Source: Candidatus Uhrbacteria bacterium (GTDB taxonomy: Bacteria; Patescibacteriota; Patescibacteriia; UBA9934; GWF2-40-263). From it: a DNA stretch of 32,146 nt. The DNA is taken from positions 1-32,146 of the forward strand of contig JACRJU010000010.1 in NCBI GenBank assembly GCA_016219925.1. The letters run 5' to 3'. This document shows positions 3,116 through 26,065 of the stretch, piece after piece (position 1 is the stretch's first letter; every line of letters starts with the position of its first letter). A model generated the notes under the pieces. That model was not told the origin of the DNA, did no database searches, and saw only the letters and a list, made by a program, of their open reading frames with translations. A program made the translations under genes and the position numbers.

Positions 3116-4087
3116 ATGTTTGATCTCATCACCATCGGCGACATTAAACTCGACGCCTTCATTTCGCTTGATCGGTGTAAAGATAAGTGCGACTTGCGTT
3201 TAAAAAAAATCGAGTTTGCTTTCGGGGAAAAAATCTCCGTGGATTTGCTGTCCCAACAAATCGCCGGCTCGGCGCCAAATGTCGCCACCGCGTTAAGCCG
3301 AATGGGAAAGCATACCGCAATCATCAGCCACATGGGAGACGACCAAACCCGTGATCACGCGATGGATATCTTAAAAAAAGAACAGGTAGAAACAGATTTC
3401 GTAGCGTCCTACCGTCGGACTTCGAGCGCTTATTCAACGGTTCTTTCCTTGCAAGGAGAAAAAACTATTCTCGTTTCTTATCTTCATAAAATTCTCAAAC
3501 TCCCCCACCCTTTTCCAAAAACCAAATGGATCTATTTGTGCGAAATGGGAAATGCTTATGAAAAAACTTATCGGCAACTTCTGCGCGAACTCAAAAAAGA
3601 TCACGTTTTGCTCGGGTACAATCCGGGGAATGAGCAGATCCGCGATCGCAAACCGGAATTATTCGACATGATCGCCCGCGCCAATGTGCTTTTTGTCAAC
3701 GTCGAGGAGGCCCAGCGCATTGTGGGTAACACGCGGCTCAAGGTGAAACATCTCGCCGAAGCGCTCTTTGCCATGGGCCCGTCCGAAGTCGTCATTACGG
3801 ATGGAAAAAACGGTTCCTACGGATATAACGGGACGTGTCTTTTTTTCTGCCCGGTCTTTCCGGGAGAACGGATTGAATCAACGGGCGCTGGCGACTCCTT
3901 TGCCTCCGCCTATATTGGCGCCAACATGAACGGAGGGTCCATGCAAGAAGCCCTGCGCTGGGGATCGGTCAACGCGGCATCTGTCGTGCACGAGATCGGG
4001 CCGACCCAAGGACTCCTCACACAAAAACAAATCCAGAAACGTCTACGGACCGCAACGGATTTCACTGTTTCAATGATCGCTGAATAA
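3116..4087 (+). CDS. PfkB/ribokinase-family carbohydrate kinase
   Basis: This ATP-dependent sugar or nucleoside kinase of the ribokinase superfamily starts MFDLITIGDIKLDAF. It has the substrate-side GSAPNVATALSRMG segment and the C-terminal anion-hole/catalytic motif STGAGDSFASAYIGA, where the GAGD Asp is the catalytic base. Length is 323 aa. The substrate cannot be read from sequence; a sugar phosphate or ribose-type substrate fits the transketolase neighbours. It follows the transketolase C subunit by 6 nt in the same operon. Its 3' end overlaps the converging reverse-transcriptase remnant by 26 bp. A paralogue lies at 7372. Confidence 0.88.
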   Translation: MFDLITIGDIKLDAFISLDRCKDKCDLRLKKIEFAFGEKISVDLLSQQIAGSAPNVATALSRMGKHTAIISHMGDDQTRDHAMDILKKEQVETDFVASYRRTSSAYSTVLSLQGEKTILVSYLHKILKLPHPFPKTKWIYLCEMGNAYEKTYRQLLRELKKDHVLLGYNPGNEQIRDRKPELFDMIARANVLFVNVEEAQRIVGNTRLKVKHLAEALFAMGPSEVVITDGKNGSYGYNGTCLFFCPVFPGERIESTGAGDSFASAYIGANMNGGSMQEALRWGSVNAASVVHEIGPTQGLLTQKQIQKRLRTATDFTVSMIAE

Positions 4088-5067
4088 TTTTTGTGCGTAG
4101 GGTGTGACCCTGACAATGCTTCAACAAGCCGAAATAGGATTGGATGTTCGAGCAGTCAACTCGCCTCAACATCCTCCGCTTTGTCTTTGTCCGAAGCACA
4201 CGGTAATGCGGAAGGGTCACGTAACCCAAAAAATCTATCCCTTGCCTAAGTTTACGAATCTCCACTTTATTTGGATGGAGCCTAAGCCGCCGTTCATGCC
4301 ACAGCCACTGTTCGATGATTGGAACAAGTAAAGATAACTTTTGATGGTCGGAATCAAGAATCACCGCGTCATCGGTATACCGAATATAATACGGGATCCT
4401 AAGCTCATCTTTGATAAAATGATCAAATGCATCCAAGTAGACGTTTGCAAATAGTTGGGAGGTTAAATTGCCGATGGGAAGCCCTGTCGGTTGTTTTGTT
4501 TCAATTAACGACCCCCCCCCCGACGGCGTTTTGTCTTGAAAAGCTTGAGACAACTTCTTGTAGCAAGTCGATTACTCCCTGAGCTTGTCGAAGGGCTAAT
4601 CGACTTCTTAAAACATTCAACAAAATCTCGTGATCCACCGAATCAAAAAATTTCTTGATATCGAACTTCAACGCCCAACAAGGTTTCTGATAATTACGAC
4701 TTACTTTCCGAGCAAACATCTCAAGACGATCAACGGCGGCGTGTGTTCCTTTTCCAATCCGACAAGAATAGCTATCAAAAATAAATGAACGATCTAACAC
4801 CGGATAAAGAACACGATAAATCGCATGATGAACAAGACGATCACGCACAGTTGCTTTGTGAATGATGCGGTGCTTGGGATCAAAAATGTGGAACCGCTGA
4901 TAGGAACCGTGTCTGTAACGACCGCATCGCAAATCATCGTACAACTGAAAAAGATAATCCTCGAGATCGCGTTCGAACTCCTGAACATCTGCTCTGCCAC
5001 GCTTCCCGCGACGAAACTCGTACCAGGCAGAAAAGAGATTCTCTAAACTGACTATTTGTTCAAACAT
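4062..5067 (-). pseudogene. DGR-type reverse transcriptase, frameshifted at a G10 tract
   Basis: The two reading frames together give a complete DGR/group-II-like reverse transcriptase. The first part (188 codons from ATG 5067) has a full N-terminus (MFEQIVSLENLFSAWYEF), the HKATVRDRLVHHAIYRVLYP region and motif A LKFDIKKFFDSVDHEIL. The second frame has GLPIGNLTSQLFANVYL, a signature of DGR RTs, the catalytic YTDD and the C-terminal FLGYVTLPHYRVLRTKTKRRM and SYFGLLKHCQGH. The break is at ten Gs (4512-4521). Nine or twelve would restore one frame: ...NAVGGGSLIETKQPTGLPIGN. A REP-like repeat (LRQAQGV, residues ~159-165) has also entered the gene. The cause may be decay, phase variation or a homopolymer sequencing error. 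Confidence 0.85.
4577..4595. repeat. REP-like palindrome inside the RT gene
   Basis: CCCTGAGCTTGTCGAAGGG is a widely dispersed bacterial short repeat. On the coding strand it is read as LRQAQGV within the reverse transcriptase. Confidence 0.7.
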
Positions 5068-5357
5068 ATTGGTATCTCAATCTTCGCAATATCCCAAAGC
5101 GTGATCGATTTACATGGGGCGAACACTGTGAAAATTTAGCTCTGAATCTTCTGAAGATAATCACCAATGCTCCATACCTGTCTCGAAACCAAAAACAAAT
5201 TGAAATTTTTACAGCCAGTCAACTCGTTGATCAACTCAAAGTATTTTTACGGCTTGGACATGACCTTCATATTCTGCCAACAAAACATAGTATTCCACGA
5301 CAAGCCGACTTGCAAGAAATCGGGCGCATGCTTGGTGGTTGGATAAAAACATTTTGA
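5052..5357 (+). pseudogene. 5'-truncated Avd-like four-helix-bundle protein (DGR accessory)
   Basis: The plus-strand frame from the stop at 5049 to TGA 5355-5357 reads a 101-residue helical protein ending LQEIGRMLGGWIKTF. That is the characteristic C-terminus of bacterial Avd-type proteins, which bind the DGR reverse transcriptase. The segments KRDRFTWGEHCENLALNLL and DQLKVFLRLGHDLHIL match the family pattern. There is no ATG, and the expected first ~15-20 residues are missing where the RT gene begins in the opposite direction. In most DGRs avd lies on the same strand as target and RT. Here it is inverted and its 3' end runs antisense into the target gene. This looks like a remnant left by rearrangement. 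Confidence 0.72.
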
Positions 5358-6252
5358 GAACAGCCAGGACGCGGAAAGCAATGTTGTCGTTCGGATTGTC
5401 GTGCCAGTTCCTGTTCACGTCCGCAAGACCACCAAGGTCACGGTAACCGACGACGAGGAAATAGCCAGCGTCGTACGAGTTGAGGCACCCCTCCCAGGAG
5501 TTGGTGGAGCCGAGGTCCGGCAGGCTCATGTTCCTGTTGACGTTCAGCCACAGGAACAGGTTGCCGATCAGGTTCCACTCCTCGGAGGTCGGCAGGCGAA
5601 GAGCGCGATTGGGGAGGCCGAAGAGCTTCACCGCCCTGGGCAGGATCGTCGCGGTCAGATGATCCCATGAGATCTTGAAGCGCGTCGTGATCTGAAGATC
5701 CTGACCGAGCAGGTCACCCTCGTAGCCCTTGGGGTCTCCCCAGTTGGGCTTCGCGATCATCTCGATGAGAACCCACCGACCGGGAAGAGGCTTGTGCTCG
5801 ATCTTGCTTCCATCGATGTGACGACCCCAGGCAGGCTTCACGAAGCTGTCAGGATAGTCGTTCTCGGTGATGGAGGGCAGGAAGACGAGCAGGAGCCTGT
5901 AGCGTTCGATCGCTTTCCTCGTCTTGCCCTTGATCTTGGGAACGGACGGGATGTTGATCTTGCGGCCGAGGATTGCCTCCCAGCACTGCTCCCAGAAGGC
6001 GCGCGGATCGATGTCGTAGGCGGCCCAGCCGTCGGTCGGTTCCGTCGCAGTGGGACGCGTGCGCTCGTTCACCTGCTCAGCAAGCCAGTTAGCGAGCACA
6101 TCCGGCGTCAACTTCCCCTGAGCGAAGAGTTCGCCCAGAGTGTTCGTGACCGTGTGATGGTCGAGCAGACCGTTGAGACCCGCGGAGGTGAAGTGAAGAC
6201 GGTGCTCGAGAACCTTCTCGAGCCAGGAAGGCAATGGCATCAACTGATTCAT
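5236..6252 (-). CDS. DGR-type target protein with C-type-lectin/FGE-like fold
   Basis: The protein has 338 aa from ATG 6252, which is preceded by GGTGGGAGA at a good distance; an upstream in-frame start at 6363 is less likely. The N-terminal ~110 residues are helical and unrecognised. The C-terminal half carries formylglycine-generating-enzyme/C-lectin features: RLPTSEEWNLIGN, NSWEGCLNSYDAGYF, then a Gly/Asn-rich segment GGLADVNRNWHDNPNDNIAF followed by RVLAVL. Variable regions of DGR targets end with this kind of NRNW...N(I)xFR stretch. After RVLAVL the frame continues for ~40 residues antisense to the avd remnant, so the natural C-terminus may have been lost. Composition differs from the flanking metabolic genes (few A-runs, many GAG/CTC/GTC), which suggests transfer. 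Confidence 0.7.
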   Translation of the reverse strand: MNQLMPLPSWLEKVLEHRLHFTSAGLNGLLDHHTVTNTLGELFAQGKLTPDVLANWLAEQVNERTRPTATEPTDGWAAYDIDPRAFWEQCWEAILGRKINIPSVPKIKGKTRKAIERYRLLLVFLPSITENDYPDSFVKPAWGRHIDGSKIEHKPLPGRWVLIEMIAKPNWGDPKGYEGDLLGQDLQITTRFKISWDHLTATILPRAVKLFGLPNRALRLPTSEEWNLIGNLFLWLNVNRNMSLPDLGSTNSWEGCLNSYDAGYFLVVGYRDLGGLADVNRNWHDNPNDNIAFRVLAVLKMFLSNHQACARFLASRLVVEYYVLLAEYEGHVQAVKIL

Positions 6253-6420
6253 CTTGTCATCTCCCACCTTGCTCTTCAGAACCGCTTCACCACTAGTGAC
6301 TCGATCCTGACATTCCAAGGTGCAAGTTGTGCACGGTTCCGTCGTGCGGCGGGCCACAGGCAAGGTGCCTGATGAACTGAAATAAGATACAGAAATATAG
6401 CCAAAAAGTCAATAGACCGA

Positions 6421-6426
6421 TATACT
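6421..6426 (+). promoter_or_regulatory. -10 box for aldolase operon (leaderless)
   Basis: TATACT ends 7 nt before the ATG at 6434, placing the predicted transcription start on or next to the start codon. There is no Shine-Dalgarno site and no convincing -35. Confidence 0.5.
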
Positions 6427-6433
6427 TCGTAAT

Positions 6434-7357
6434 ATGCTCACCTCCCTTTCTTCCATTCTCACAAAAGCCCAGCGCGGCCGTTATGCGGTCGGTGCTTTTA
6501 ACATCAACAACCTGGAAACACTCCAAGCGGTCATGGATGCCGCACAGGCCGAGCGCTCGCCGGTCATTGTGCAAACCTCCGAGGGGGCGATCGACTATGC
6601 GGGGATGGACGAACTCGCCGCGCTCGTTCACTTAGCCGCCAAGCGCACGAGCCGGCCGGTCGTTTTCCATCTTGACCATGGGAAAAATTACGACCTTGTG
6701 GTCAGAGCGATTATAAGCGGTTTCTACACGAGCGTGATGTTTGACGGATCTTCCCTCCCCTATAAGGAAAACGTACGCCGCACCAAAAAACTCGTCGAGA
6801 TGGCACACAAAAAAGGGATAAGCGTGGAAGCAGAACTCGGGCTTATCGCCGGCAAAGAAGATTTCGTCTCCGTCGCCGAACATGAAGCGGCCATGACCCA
6901 ACCGGCGCAGGCGGCTGACTTTATCAAACAAACGGGATGCGATGCTCTTGCGGTTGCGATCGGCACGCGTCACGGGGCTTTCAAAATGAAAACAGAATCC
7001 ACTCTCGACTTTGAACGTCTCAAACAAATTGCCGAAGCGGTCAGTGTTCCACTTGTCCTTCACGGCGCCTCGGGAGTTCCCTCACGCATCAAAACCCTCT
7101 GTACAAAATACGGCTGTGAGATCGCTTCGGCTAAAGGGATCCCCGATATTCAAATTAAAAAAGCCGTGTCGCTTGGAATTTGCAAAGTGAACATTGATAC
7201 CGATTTAAGAATTGCCTTTGACGCCGGTATTCGAAAATTTTTGAAAGAAAAGCCTGGGGTCATTGATCCGCGCGAAATTTTGAAACCTGCCAAAGCCCTC
7301 ATCACACAGGTCGCCCGCCACAAAATGAAACTGTTTGGATCATCAGGAAAAGCTTAG
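6434..7357 (+). CDS. fba: Class II fructose-bisphosphate aldolase
   Basis: This zinc-dependent aldolase interconverts fructose 1,6-bisphosphate with glyceraldehyde 3-phosphate and dihydroxyacetone phosphate. Visible elements are the N-terminal GRYAVGAFNINNLET, the catalytic/zinc pair in FHLDHG (D81, H82), the VEAELG metal-site segment (~131-136), GTRHG (H180), LHGASG (H210; usually LHGGSG), and KVNIDTDLR, which binds the substrate phosphate. Length is 307 aa, typical for the family. It opens the second half of the carbon-metabolism cluster, followed at 15 nt by a PfkB kinase. Confidence 0.92.
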   Translation: MLTSLSSILTKAQRGRYAVGAFNINNLETLQAVMDAAQAERSPVIVQTSEGAIDYAGMDELAALVHLAAKRTSRPVVFHLDHGKNYDLVVRAIISGFYTSVMFDGSSLPYKENVRRTKKLVEMAHKKGISVEAELGLIAGKEDFVSVAEHEAAMTQPAQAADFIKQTGCDALAVAIGTRHGAFKMKTESTLDFERLKQIAEAVSVPLVLHGASGVPSRIKTLCTKYGCEIASAKGIPDIQIKKAVSLGICKVNIDTDLRIAFDAGIRKFLKEKPGVIDPREILKPAKALITQVARHKMKLFGSSGKA

Positions 7358-15426: not shown

Positions 15427-15704
15427 CAGAGAACTCTTTTGGAGTTCTCTGATTTGAAGATGATGTAAAGAAAACCGATGAGGATTCTTTCAAATCCATA
15501 AATGGTTGCAGAGCTTGACCGATTAGTACCACTCCGCTCAACGCCTTACAGCGCTTTCACGTATGGCCTATCAACCTGCTCGTCTCGCAGGGGTCTCAAA
15601 TGAAGACCAATCTTGGGAACGGCTTCACGCTTAGATGCTTTCAGCGTTTATCCGCACCGAACGTCGCTACCCGGCAATGCTCCTGGCGGAACAACCGGTA
15701 CACG

Positions 15705-15740
<36 letters not shown>

Positions 15741-15776
15741 TGGATTCCCTCAATCTTCGAAGCCCATGGTAGATAG

Positions 15777-15809
<33 letters not shown>

Positions 15810-15814
15810 ACTCA

Positions 15815-15850
<36 letters not shown>

Positions 15851-15888
15851 AACCTTCTTCAGCTCCAGGATGCGATGAGTCGACATCG

Positions 15889-16718
15889 CTGTCGATAATC
15901 CATCATTACTGATGGCGCGGACTATATCTTCATCCTTCTGCAATTTCTCGCAGTGAGGAGATGGCGTGTTAGCATTCCGTACAGGGAACACTCGGGAAAC
16001 TTTCGTTTCCACAGTCTCTACGGGGTCATGACCAACTTGTAGCGCATGCTTGGAACGACATGTTTCTTTATCATTTTCATGAAGGAAGGGATGGACTCTT
16101 TAAGAATCCTGATTCGATAGTATCGCTTATCCTTGTTCAGACGAGCTAATACTCCTACCTCACGCAATTGATAGAGTAATCGTTTTTGATCCTGCAAAGA
16201 AAACTGTTGGGTATTGAGATAAATATCGGATGCGCGGGATTTGCTCCCATCATCCATATACCAAATCGCCAACATCAAGTGATCTATTTTAAGATCAGTT
16301 GGAATTATTTTCTTCCCGTTTTTATAAAATCGACCGTAGAGCTGTGTGAGCTCATGGGTTTGATTCGTAAAAAAACGGTATGCGCGACGACCTTCAGAAC
16401 CGGATGATCTTTCTTTCGATGGCGAAGTACAGATTCTCCGCAAGCCAGAATATTTGCTATCGACATACTCGCGAGCCTTGTTGGAATGATTAATTTCCAA
16501 AAAAGCATCGCGTCGTCCTGGAATGATTCGCAAATACCCATCACCAAGAAGACTTCCGATAATAATTGATCGTTCACGTTGTGTCAGACTTCCCACGGTA
16601 TTGTCCATATTCGTCTCTATTTTAACATGGAGTTCACCGTTATAAGCCATGATTTTACAAGAGCTCTGTGCTCTTGATCCAGACTGCATCATTTCTGATG
16701 CCGCACCCCGATGTATTA
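15889..16718 (-). mobile_element. Group I intron at 23S position 2500 (L2500) with homing endonuclease
   Basis: The 830-nt insertion lies between exon ...GGCACCT (ends at U2500, E. coli numbering) and CGATGTCG.... The intron start carries ACATCG (16714-16709), pairing with the 3' exon CGATGT (P10), next to GGGGTGC, which pairs with exon GCACCT to give P1 with the required U-G at the splice site. The last intron base is G. The conserved core element GAAGATATAGTCCG (P7 region) is present near 15935. It contains a LAGLIDADG ORF. The site lies in the peptidyl-transferase centre. Confidence 0.93.
16018..16608 (-). CDS. LAGLIDADG homing endonuclease (intron-encoded)
   Basis: A two-motif single-chain LAGLIDADG enzyme, expected to cut intronless 23S genes at the insertion site. 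Motif 1 is SIIIGSLLGDGYL and motif 2 is LMLAIWYMDDGS; the acidic residues (GDG and DDG) are conserved. The intervening HSNKAREYVDSKYSGLRRI, YRFFTNQTHELT and the C-terminal DKRYYRIRILKESI match the family. The start is taken as ATG 16608 (MDNTVGSLTQRERS, 196 aa); ATG 16650 and 16692 are in-frame alternatives. The frame is intact, so the intron may still be mobile. The stop is followed by the core of the intron. Confidence 0.9.
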   Translation of the reverse strand: MDNTVGSLTQRERSIIIGSLLGDGYLRIIPGRRDAFLEINHSNKAREYVDSKYSGLRRICTSPSKERSSGSEGRRAYRFFTNQTHELTQLYGRFYKNGKKIIPTDLKIDHLMLAIWYMDDGSKSRASDIYLNTQQFSLQDQKRLLYQLREVGVLARLNKDKRYYRIRILKESIPSFMKMIKKHVVPSMRYKLVMTP

Positions 16719-17266
16719 AGGTGCCGAACCTCCCCGTCGCTGTGGACGCTTGGGGGAGACTAGCCTGTTATCCCCGGAGTAGCTTTTATCCGTTGAGCTT
16801 CCGCCGTCCTATTTCGTACGGTCGGATCACTAACTTCTGCTTTCGCAACTGCGCGACGTGTCAGTCTTGCAGTAGAGCCGGCTTCTGCGTTTGCACATCC
16901 AGCGCGATTTCCATCCGCGCTAAGCCGACCTTAGTAAACGCCTCCGTTACATTTTGGGAGGCACCCGCCCCAGGTAAACTACCCGCCAGATCCTGTCCCG
17001 GATACCGGTTTCACGGCGTCCAGTTAGAATTCACACAGCACAAGGGTGGTATCTCACTGGTGCCCGAAGGCTCCCACCTATGCTGAACAAGTGAAGCGTG
17101 AACCCAAGACCAAGTTGTAGTAAAGCTTCACGGGGTCTTTTCGTCTAACCACGGGAAGTGAGCATCTTCACTCACATTGCAATTTCGCCGAGTCCATCGT
17201 TGAGAGAGTCGTCAACTCGTTATGCCATTCGTGCAGGACGGAACTTACCCGTCAAGGAATTTCGCT

Positions 17267-17540
17267 TATGTTGTTCTTCACTTTTTGAAATGAATGGTCG
17301 ACCAAGTTCGTCGACTCCTGCATGTCACCATGCAGATCGGACTATATCTTCACTCAGTTATCACTGAGGTTCGGCGTGTAGTCTCTGAGGATTCCCTTCG
17401 ATTTCTCTCAGGGTCTTTCCTGCTGATTGTCTGACGTTTGTCAGAGTTTCCAGCATATAGCCAAATTTTTCACTTACGTCTTCTTCGGCACAAAGAAGTT
17501 CAATGAGAGGTCTTACACCTCACTAAGGCAGCTTGTGTCC
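17267..17540 (-). ncRNA. ORF-less group I intron at 23S position 1931 (L1931)
   Basis: The 274-nt insertion splits CCTAAGGT|AGCGAAATT after U1931. The IGS GCCTTAG (17529-17523) pairs fully with exon CTAAGGT, including the splice-site U-G, and the preceding GCT can pair with 3' exon AGC (P10). The core has AATCAGCAGG, CCTCAGAGACTACACGCC and GAAGATATAGTCCG, a canonical P4-P7 set. The predicted final intron base is A instead of the near-universal G. No ORF is present, so the intron is immobile or depends on a trans-acting endonuclease. Confidence 0.88.
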
Positions 17541-18389
17541 ACCTTAGGACGATTATAGTTATCGCCGGCGTTCATCCGCGCTTCAGTTAGAGGCTTCGCC
17601 CTTGCGGGCTAACCCCCTCCCTTAACGTTCGGACACTGGCCAGGCATCAGCCCCTATACATCACCTTGCGGTTTAGCAGGGACCTGTGTTTTTGATAAAC
17701 AGTCGGTTGACGTCTTTCGCTGCGGGTCACCCTCTCCCGAGGGCAACCAGGCCTTATCCCGAAGTTACGGCCGTTGTTTTGCCGAGTTCCTTAACGATGG
17801 TTCTCTCGTACACCTTAGTGCATTACGCACCCACCCACCTGTGTCGGTTTGCGGTACGGGTCTCTCTCACATAATCCTAGCGGCTTTTCTTGGCTCCCCA
17901 TCCTTTCCCCTTGCCCGCCCGTGAAGGCAGACTCGCGATGATGCCCGTGTTCGGGGTCGAACCCCAGTCTGACGGATTTGCCTATCAGACACCAAGACAT
18001 CCCCAACGTCATAGCCATAGGACGCGGGAAATTGAAGGAAGCGTCCCCACATCGGTGTGAAAGAGAGTGCAGGAATATTAACCTGCTGTGCATCGACTAC
18101 GCCTTTCGGCCTCGCCTTAGCTCCCGACTCACCCTGGGACGATTCACGTTGCCCAGGAAACCTCGGGTTTACGGTGGACGGGATTTGCACCCGTCTTTGT
18201 GCTACTCATGCCAACATTCTCCCTTCGCATCGCTCCACCAGTGGTCACCCACCAGCTTCAGTGCAATACGAATGCTCCCCTACCGCTCTTGGTCCAAAGA
18301 CCAAAAACCCTCAACTTCGGCACGCCATTTAGCCCCGGTACATTTTCGGCGCAGGAAAGCTTGACCAGTGAGCTGTTACGCTATCTTTA

Positions 18390-18427
<38 letters not shown>

Positions 18428-18817
18428 AGCCTTCCCACCACCTTTTACACTTAATGGCGATTTAGGGGCCTTAGTTTGAGATCTGGGCTGTTACCCTTTT
18501 GACGGATGGAGCTTAGCCCCCATCGTCTGACTGCCGGGAACGTGTGTTGGTATTCGGAGTTTGGTTAGGTCCGCTAGCCGAAGCCGCAAGACCCATTCAG
18601 TGCTCTACCCCCAACACACTATTTACCGACGCTAGCCCTAAAGCTATCTCGGGGAGAACCAGCTATTACCGAGTTCGATTGGAATTTCTCCGCTATCCAC
18701 GCGTCATCCCCGTGTTTTGCACAGCACGTGGGTTCGGGCCTCCACGGATTGTTACACCCGCTTCACCCTGCACATGGATAGGTCACCCGGTTTCGGGTCG
18801 TGTGCGCGCCACTCTCT

Positions 18818-18875
18818 ATCTTTCTACTCGACATCCTGCTGTAAACAACAAGATGGATCGAGTAGAGAGAAAGAT
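18818..18875 (-). other. Extra stem-loop/possible intervening sequence in 23S
   Basis: Arms ATCTTTCTACTCGACATC and a complementary GATGGATCGAGTAGAGAG-type sequence form a long imperfect hairpin. It extends a 23S helix beyond the usual bacterial form. It may be an expansion or an excised IVS. Confidence 0.4.
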
Positions 18876-19043
18876 CACGCGGATTAACGCTCGCTTTCAC
18901 TTTGGCTCCGTCCCGGAGGACTTAACCAAGCGACGCACAGCACACTCGTTGGCTCATTCTTCAATAGGAACGCCGTCACCCACCCGAAGGCAGGCTCCGA
19001 CTCCTTGTAAGCATACGGTTTCAGATACTATTTCATTCCCCTT

Positions 19044-19077
<34 letters not shown>

Positions 19078-19845
19078 GTTCACTATCGATCAGAACGTGT
19101 ATTTAGTCTTGCCAGATAGTCCCGGCAGGTTCCTACAGGGTTTCTCGAGCCCCGTAGTACTCAAGGATGATCATCACAACAGTGTCGTGTATTTCGCGTA
19201 CAGGACTTTCACCTTCTGTGGTGCGACGTTCCAGTCGCTTTCGCTATACAAGACATCTGCGGTCTGTCCTTGGAAGTGGACAACATGACCACCTTACAAC
19301 ACCGACGATCGCAACGGCTTCCACCTTTCACCACCGCTTGCACTTCAACTTGCGTCTCTGTGCTTGCCATGGTTTCACGATCATGGTTTGGACTGTTCCC
19401 TTTTCGTTCGCCACTACTTAGGGAATGGATTCGCTCTTCGTTTCCACGCGACGTGCGTGACCGGCAAAGCCGGTCGAGCGTGAAAACGCAGAGTGAATTA
19501 ATACTTTTTATTTTCCTCTGGGTACTGAGATGTTTCACTTCCCCAGGTGCCCTCCTTGTACCTATGAATTGAGTACAAGGCGATGCGGCATTCCCCGCAT
19601 CGGGTTTCCCCGTTCGGACATCTCCGGATCAAAGGTTGCTTGCCACCTCCCCGAAGCTTATCGCAGGCTGCTACGTCCTTCATCGGCACGTTCTGTCTAG
19701 CCATCCTCCGTATGCTCTTATATGCTCTGCAACCATTTATGAATTCGATTCACAAATGATTGTTCATTTTTTTATTCATGGTTCTCTTCTTCATCTTCAG
19801 TTGTAAGGAACTTCCTGTCCGATATTCCTCTTAGAGCCATTCTTC

Positions 19846-25771: not shown

Positions 25772-25847
25772 GCGGTAATAGCTCAGTTGGTAGAGCGTCT
25801 CCTTGCCAAGGAGAAGGTCGCGAGTTCGAGTCTCGTTTACCGCTCCA
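25772..25847 (+). tRNA. tRNA-Gly (anticodon GCC), CCA encoded
   Basis: Acceptor GCGGTAA/TTACCGC, D-arm TAGCTCAGTTGGTAGA, anticodon stem CTCC/GGAG around TTGCCAA, T-arm GCGAGTTCGAGTCTCGT, CCA at 25845-25847. Its last 21 bases recur at 26010-26030. Confidence 0.95.
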
Positions 25848-26030
25848 TATCAAAGCTCCAGTTCATCTGGAGTTTTTATATGGATGGACGCAAGCAAGCC
25901 ACCTGCGTGGCTTGCGGCGAGACTCGAACGCCGGAGCCTTGTGCAGCCAGCAGGCTGCACAGGCGAGGCGGTGCCCAGCCCGAGCCGCTGCAGCGGCGAG
26001 AGGCGCGGGCGAGTCTCGTTTACCGCTCCA
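25827..26030 (+). repeat. Direct repeat of tRNA-Gly 3' end bracketing palindrome-rich DNA
   Basis: The tRNA's last 21 bases (25827-25847) recur exactly at 26010-26030. The 162-nt spacer contains a terminator and then perfect palindromes: GCAAGCCAC-CTGC-GTGGCTTGC, GTGCAGCC-AGCA-GGCTGCAC and GCCGCTGCAGCGGC. It also has an inverted T-arm-like GCGAGACTCGAACGCC. Each repeat copy is followed by its own hairpin terminator. This is consistent with an att-type footprint, a MITE, or a corrupted tRNA duplication. Confidence 0.6.
25856..25878 (+). terminator. tRNA-Gly terminator
   Basis: CTCCAG-TTCAT-CTGGAG followed by TTTTTATA. Confidence 0.75.
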
Positions 26031-26032
26031 AC

Positions 26033-26061
26033 AAAAAGCCCCAGCGTGTCTGGGACTTTTT
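26033..26061 (+). terminator. Terminator behind the duplicated tRNA end
   Basis: AAAAAG and CCCAG pair with CTGGG and CTTTTT, with one mismatch between them, ending in a T-run. It directly precedes the polX -10 box. Confidence 0.6.
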
Positions 26062-26065
26062 GTTG

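Follow-up and report, generated by a model that had tools for sequence, protein, structure and literature searches.

In the single-stranded DNA of CTXphi, the attP1 and attP2 sites face opposite ways at a distance of about 90 nt and hybridise into a forked hairpin for the host Xer recombinases (PMC3089051). Integron attC sites are palindromic folded single strands whose units may stand in tandem (PMC4792948). Genomic islands targeted to tRNA genes have their tyrosine-integrase att sites in the T loop. The Islander paper describes the 3' half of a tRNA gene as the target, with the tRNA kept intact and a 3' fragment displaced (PMC4383910). Short, GC-rich, non-coding hairpins dispersed through genomes are also known, namely MITEs, REP sequences, Rickettsia palindromic elements, mitochondrial GC clusters and double-hairpin elements. 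Here we describe a segment behind a tRNA-Gly gene of a Candidatus Uhrbacteria bacterium that shares traits with these systems and belongs to an apparently undescribed family: neither a description of the family nor a described element with both inverted and direct arms derived from its target was found in the open-access literature.

The window, i.e., the whole stretch of 32,146 nucleotides that was analysed, carries a tRNA-Gly(gcc) gene whose last 21 nt, CGAGTCTCGTTTACCGCTCCA, are present as two exact copies separated by 162 nt rich in palindromes (Table 1). The original prediction of a 21-bp repeat of the tRNA-Gly 3' end around a palindromic segment was thereby confirmed, as were an inverted piece resembling a T arm, which in reverse complement matches the T arm exactly over 12 nt, and a separate terminator hairpin behind each copy (at about 25852-25877 and 26029-26065). 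In tRNA orientation, the order is tRNA (with T1), terminator, T', core and T2. Such a direct repeat of a tRNA 3' end around an insert that leaves the tRNA intact is characteristic of tRNA-targeted integrative elements, and the host tRNA-Gly(gcc) is intact because its 3' half is supplied or kept by the element. However, no ORF was found within the unit and no element-encoded integrase, the insert being only 162 nt. The hp2 hairpin is a frequent but optional module of the family, missing in a minimal member (L225) that also lacks the terminator. Judging from its sequence, H2 is probably the native terminator adjoining polX; the final terminator before polX at a related locus (L029) is like H2, with the form ACAAAA..CCCCAG..CTGGG. 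A DNA search of the own genome found no further copies, so the element is single-copy there. In a congeneric genome (G001, locus L212, G001:C14), the tRNA-Gly gene and the element are inverted relative to polX when compared with window 25772-26030, which suggests a local inversion of the whole cassette.

Table 1. Features of the tRNA-Gly gene and the inserted segment, in window coordinates.
Feature	Position	Strand	Basis
tRNA-Gly(gcc), host gene	25772-25847	+	ARAGORN; Rfam RF00005, 73 bits
T1, tRNA 3' half from T loop to CCA, first copy, within the functional tRNA	25827-25847	+	exact 21-nt direct repeat
H1, hairpin like an intrinsic terminator, between tRNA and element	25851-25880	+	sequence, fold
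hp2, perfect 9-bp hairpin GCAAGCCAC-CTGC-GTGGCTTGC	25894-25915	+	sequence, fold
T', inverted T loop and 3' T stem, CGAGACTCGAAC	25918-25929	+	reverse complement of 25824-25835 at 12/12 positions; family members match their own tRNA
Conserved core, GAACGCCGGAG-hp3-CGAGGCGGTGSCCAG-hp4-GAGnCGmGG	25926-26009	+	43-row alignment, RNAalifold, covariance model 100.7 bits
P2 (25929-25932 / 25967-25970), closes hp3; tandem G.A motif	25929-25970	+	fold, RNAalifold
hp3, GTGCAGCC-AGCA-GGCTGCAC	25941-25960	+	fold, RNAalifold
P2', GCCC/GGGC (25973-25976 / 26007-26010), around P4 and hp4	25973-26010	+	alignment, RNAalifold
hp4, CCGCTGCAGCGG	25985-25996	+	alignment, RNAalifold
T2, tRNA 3' half repeated distally (second copy); partner of T' when the strand folds	26010-26030	+	direct repeat, fold
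H2, second terminator hairpin, 16-nt arms 94% complementary	26029-26065	+	sequence

A degenerate pattern of the core recovered at least 118 loci of the family in a collection of named genomes. Among the matches listed, record names were those of CPR/Patescibacteria or unspecific ('bacterium'), and the groups included Uhr-, Kaiser-, Taylor-, Moran-, Nomura-, Yanofsky-, Magasanik- and Woesebacteria, among others. DNA searches matched 29 of 60 genomes of relatives (up to 8 matches each), a covariance model detected the element in 34 of 287 genomes across the phylum (1-13 copies per genome), and 16 of 40 close relatives carry it. Matches of the covariance model that fell outside the exact pattern also adjoin tRNA genes, and they include a diverged branch of the form GAAAGCCGGAG...GAGGCGGGGTCGCG...TGTGACC. 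No core matches were obtained in viral contigs (searched with two core patterns), phages or plasmids. Elements measure about 100-185 bp, with a conserved core of ~85 nt between T' and T, and units can stand in tandem (L035, L036 and L244). The search for the palindromic block that the original prediction had proposed thus yielded a single copy in the own genome and many tRNA-adjacent copies in the phylum; similar elements do exist elsewhere, and the segment is not conserved in all relatives.

A tRNA gene on the same strand lies at most 2 kb upstream of 103 of the 129 distinct cores, and 16 isotypes are represented. Most of the other 26 cores are no more than 400 nt from the start of the locus, whereas about seven stand as orphans in the interior. 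The gap between tRNA and element is 100 nt or shorter in 89 of the 99 elements analysed. Within this same set, T' matches the host tRNA at 6/6 positions in 60% of elements (3.5% with shuffled tRNAs), T2 matches at no fewer than 13/14 in 66% (1.3% shuffled), and the inverted acceptor end matches at 7/7 in 27% (1% shuffled). Since direct and inverted copies fit their own tRNA far better than others (n = 99), a chance origin of the arms is excluded. T' often has GA (17/99) where there is no Watson-Crick pairing with R57-A58 of the T loop, which gives a tandem sheared G.A. In some cases (L036 and L037) the direct repeat runs on beyond the terminator and takes in part of a second unit, and no third T follows the array in G001; neither would be expected from a clean att reaction. 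At a further locus (L219, G164:C18), three tandem cores with a 100-nt period and small palindromes between them lie inside the T loop of a tRNA-gene copy, and the T-H-T' spacer is not of tRNA origin.

The segment folds at -121.5 kcal/mol, compared with -83.7 +/- 4.7 kcal/mol for dinucleotide shuffles (z = -8.0). Folding of the 43-row alignment with RNAalifold yielded the T'/T2 stem, P2 with hp3, and P2' with P4 and hp4, such that the core and the T'/T stem make up a three-way junction, and double compensatory changes were detected in 21 of its 32 pairs. Specifically, P2' covaries with GGCC/GGCC in relatives (alignment columns 78-139: GC 25, CG 18, G-U none). The plus strand gave the better fold in 111 of 117 elements, and 2x2 loops across the family were GA/GA in 256 cases and TC/TC in one; the folding strand is therefore the tRNA sense strand, to which the sheared G·A pairs are confined. 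Among the inner pairs of the element (n = 1061), G-T (11) and A-C (9) were similarly rare, whereas tRNA stems of the same loci (n = 3312 pairs) contained 171 G-T and 4 A-C. This scarcity of G-T points to folded single-stranded DNA, not RNA, although a genuine RNA subject to quasi-palindrome correction could also come to be low in G-T. On these grounds we lean towards single-stranded DNA as the active form.

Insertion polymorphism was seen at orthologous tRNA loci. The tRNA-Ala(cgc) and tRNA-Asp(gtc) genes of the own genome are empty and both are occupied in congeneric G001; the syntenic tRNA-Ala(cgc) holds no element in the own genome, one of a different subfamily in G005 and two in G001. The cores also hop between isotypes: those standing beside tRNA-Ala, -Glu and -His are 94-97% identical, with arms that fit each tRNA, so the arms must be renewed when a core moves. 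Core lineages specific to a tRNA isotype were unsupported, as the nearest core was of the same isotype in 13 of 95 cases versus 7.3 in shuffles. Because cores hardly follow isotype and orthologous tRNA loci may be empty, single or double, the segment is very probably a mobile element. The suggestion that it might be a MITE held in kind, as regards its short, dispersed, non-coding copies, its insertion polymorphism and its specificity for tRNA 3' ends. However, it has no terminal inverted repeats in common with an autonomous transposon: the inverted arms reproduce the host tRNA and vary from site to site, and no transposase gene recurs next to the copies. The scar of a lost element, also suggested, does not agree with the recurrence of the same core at 16 tRNA isotypes phylum-wide.

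Among the neighbours of the element, no recurrent gene or integrase appeared as an autonomous partner: these were scattered, mostly housekeeping-type genes and a few xer ORFs. At least one tyrosine recombinase was present in all 19 carriers tested, often exactly one, but this is weak evidence because nearly all genomes, carriers or not, have one. Three of four recombinases examined were nearest to XerC/XerD and the fourth was weaker, all four falling below the cut-offs of those models; three of the four scored 102-136 with TIGR02249 (integron integrase), whose cut-off is 265. From this analysis, a tyrosine recombinase of the Xer type is a tentative candidate for the mobilising enzyme. Y1_Tnp and RVT_1 were rejected as necessary enzymes, since several carriers were without them: Y1_Tnp occurs in some carriers but was absent from G001, G083, G144, G037, G287, G113, G323 and G205, and RVT_1 was not found in G083 (9 copies), G107 (10 copies), G144, G323, G339, G212 or G001.

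We give about even chances to an overall explanation in which tiny, non-coding, non-autonomous elements, distributed CPR-wide, insert at the tRNA T loop, probably as folded single-stranded DNA and with a tyrosine recombinase as the putative enzyme. The tRNA sense strand would become single-stranded and fold, with T' and T2 forming a duplex tRNA 3' half beneath the forked core. Recombination of the duplex with a tRNA gene at the T loop would then be the work of a tyrosine recombinase, probably the Xer of the host. Simple site-specific recombination does not explain why T' is complementary to the new tRNA; the likeliest addition would be a re-matching of the arm at that tRNA, through template-switch copying or quasi-palindrome correction.

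The strong covariation, the fold, and an end in a tRNA 3' half with CCA plus a terminator would also suit a conserved structured RNA in the tRNA 3' trailer, a mimic or regulator inherited vertically whose arms co-evolve with the tRNA. A structured RNA, as raised in the original prediction, has been weakened as a reading and we consider it unlikely: the element is located behind a terminator, it is patchy within the genus with orthologous tRNAs empty, its cores do not go with isotype, its helices have nearly no G-U, unlike the tRNA stems of the same locus, and no Rfam family matched it at the gathering or the E-value threshold. The order T-H-T'-...-T, on the other hand, corresponds to an inverted triplication, and distal repeats frequently end inside hairpins (L036, L037 and L007), in keeping with palindrome-driven template switching during replication. 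In that case, the T-T'-T (direct-inverted-direct) triplication would have arisen at the hairpins of the terminator and the T arm, and no element as such would be involved. An origin of the segment as such a by-product is largely refuted by the core of invariant sequence between T' and T at more than 100 loci phylum-wide, and we hold it to be quite unlikely, although the arms themselves may be copied by template switching.

Two further explanations invoke enzymes encoded by some of the carriers. In a retro-element, reverse transcription from tRNA 3' ends would make a PBS-like inverted arm and the cDNA would enter the tRNA gene. T' does resemble a tRNA 3'-end cDNA halted at the T loop, the arm fits the host tRNA, and the own genome has reverse transcriptases, one of them in the window; with several carriers devoid of RVT_1 proteins, including those with 9 and 10 copies, we regard this as very improbable. 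The hairpin character in single-stranded DNA and the Y1_Tnp proteins of some carriers are likewise compatible with a palindromic repeat mobilised as single-stranded DNA by an HUH/Y1 enzyme (RAYT- or IS200-like), but eight carriers without Y1_Tnp make this the most far-fetched of the explanations.

If the preferred mechanism of folded DNA and a tyrosine recombinase is compared with the known systems, it resembles CTXphi attP(+)/IMEX and integron attC. In CTXphi attP(+)/IMEX, inverted target-like copies on one strand form a stem equivalent to the duplex target, without an integrase of their own (PMC3089051). The modelled stem of the folded element would likewise recreate the target site, and it may serve as a substrate. 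Unlike CTXphi/IMEX, the element has target tRNA 3' halves instead of dif, arms that vary with each insertion and no phage genome, with a putative role for Xer; its copies were found at tRNA genes and not at dif. With attC it has in common a palindromic folded single strand and tandem units (L244 and L219), but it differs in its highly conserved core sequence, its sense-strand tandem G.A and its lack of cassette genes; no attI platform was found, and the recombinases examined were far below the cut-off for integron integrases. It shares with tRNA-targeted islands (PMC4383910) the tRNA 3' half as target and the preservation of the tRNA, but it measures only about 160-185 bp and is gene-less, with many isotypes per family and an inverted target copy. 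Strict tRNA targeting and direct plus inverted arms derived from the target separate it from MITEs, REP sequences, Rickettsia palindromic elements, mitochondrial GC clusters and double-hairpin elements. It is possible, although we put it at somewhat less than even, that the family represents a new class of mobile DNA that is gene-less and phylum-wide, with arms built from the target tRNA, a folded single-stranded form and reliance on host enzymes only.

Other inserts were also observed at tRNA genes. A second hairpin family is present at the tRNA-His of the own genome (L189 1500-1790, G000:C6) and, in two copies, at the tRNA-Gly that precedes polX in G026 (L029 1000-1540). In this family, an inverted 5' T-arm side is followed by GGTACGATGCTTGAAGTGAGCGAGCGG-like sequence and then by the tRNA 3' end in direct orientation. 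A third type of insert was seen in the own genome (L183 2290-2580, G000:C14), where structured sequence of about 95 nt splits the T loop of a partial tandem copy of tRNA-Arg(gcg). As the second-family and tRNA-Arg inserts lie at the same place, the T loop seems to be a general entry point. An apparent relic, consisting of an inverted T arm without a core, stands after the terminator TGGGAATCGAACGCGAAAGGATTC at tRNA-Glu(ctc) (L190 about 840-930, G000:C12), and an apparent group I intron occupies a tRNA gene directly upstream of one element copy (L084 about 5555-6700). Elsewhere in the window, on the minus strand, a reverse transcriptase split over overlapping ORFs (4062-4553 and 4501-5067) lies beside ORF 5236-6363, and the region 4062-6363 looks like a putative diversity-generating retroelement with a frameshifted reverse transcriptase. 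Also on the minus strand, the 23S rRNA gene (15505-19731) is interrupted by a group I intron at 17318-17506 according to Rfam, and its ORF at 16018-16692 resembles a homing endonuclease.

Few mobile elements have been described in the small genomes of CPR bacteria. For this group, a gene-less family found next to tRNA genes, with 16 or more isotypes among them, would mean a new way in which genomes change, and it would also give rise to tandem 3' fragments of tRNAs. In practice, it accounts for the spurious ORFs and the contig ends that are met at CPR tRNA genes. The family would also allow ideas on how folded single-stranded DNA undergoes site-specific recombination to be tested, and it raises the question of how the arms of an element are re-tailored to each new target.
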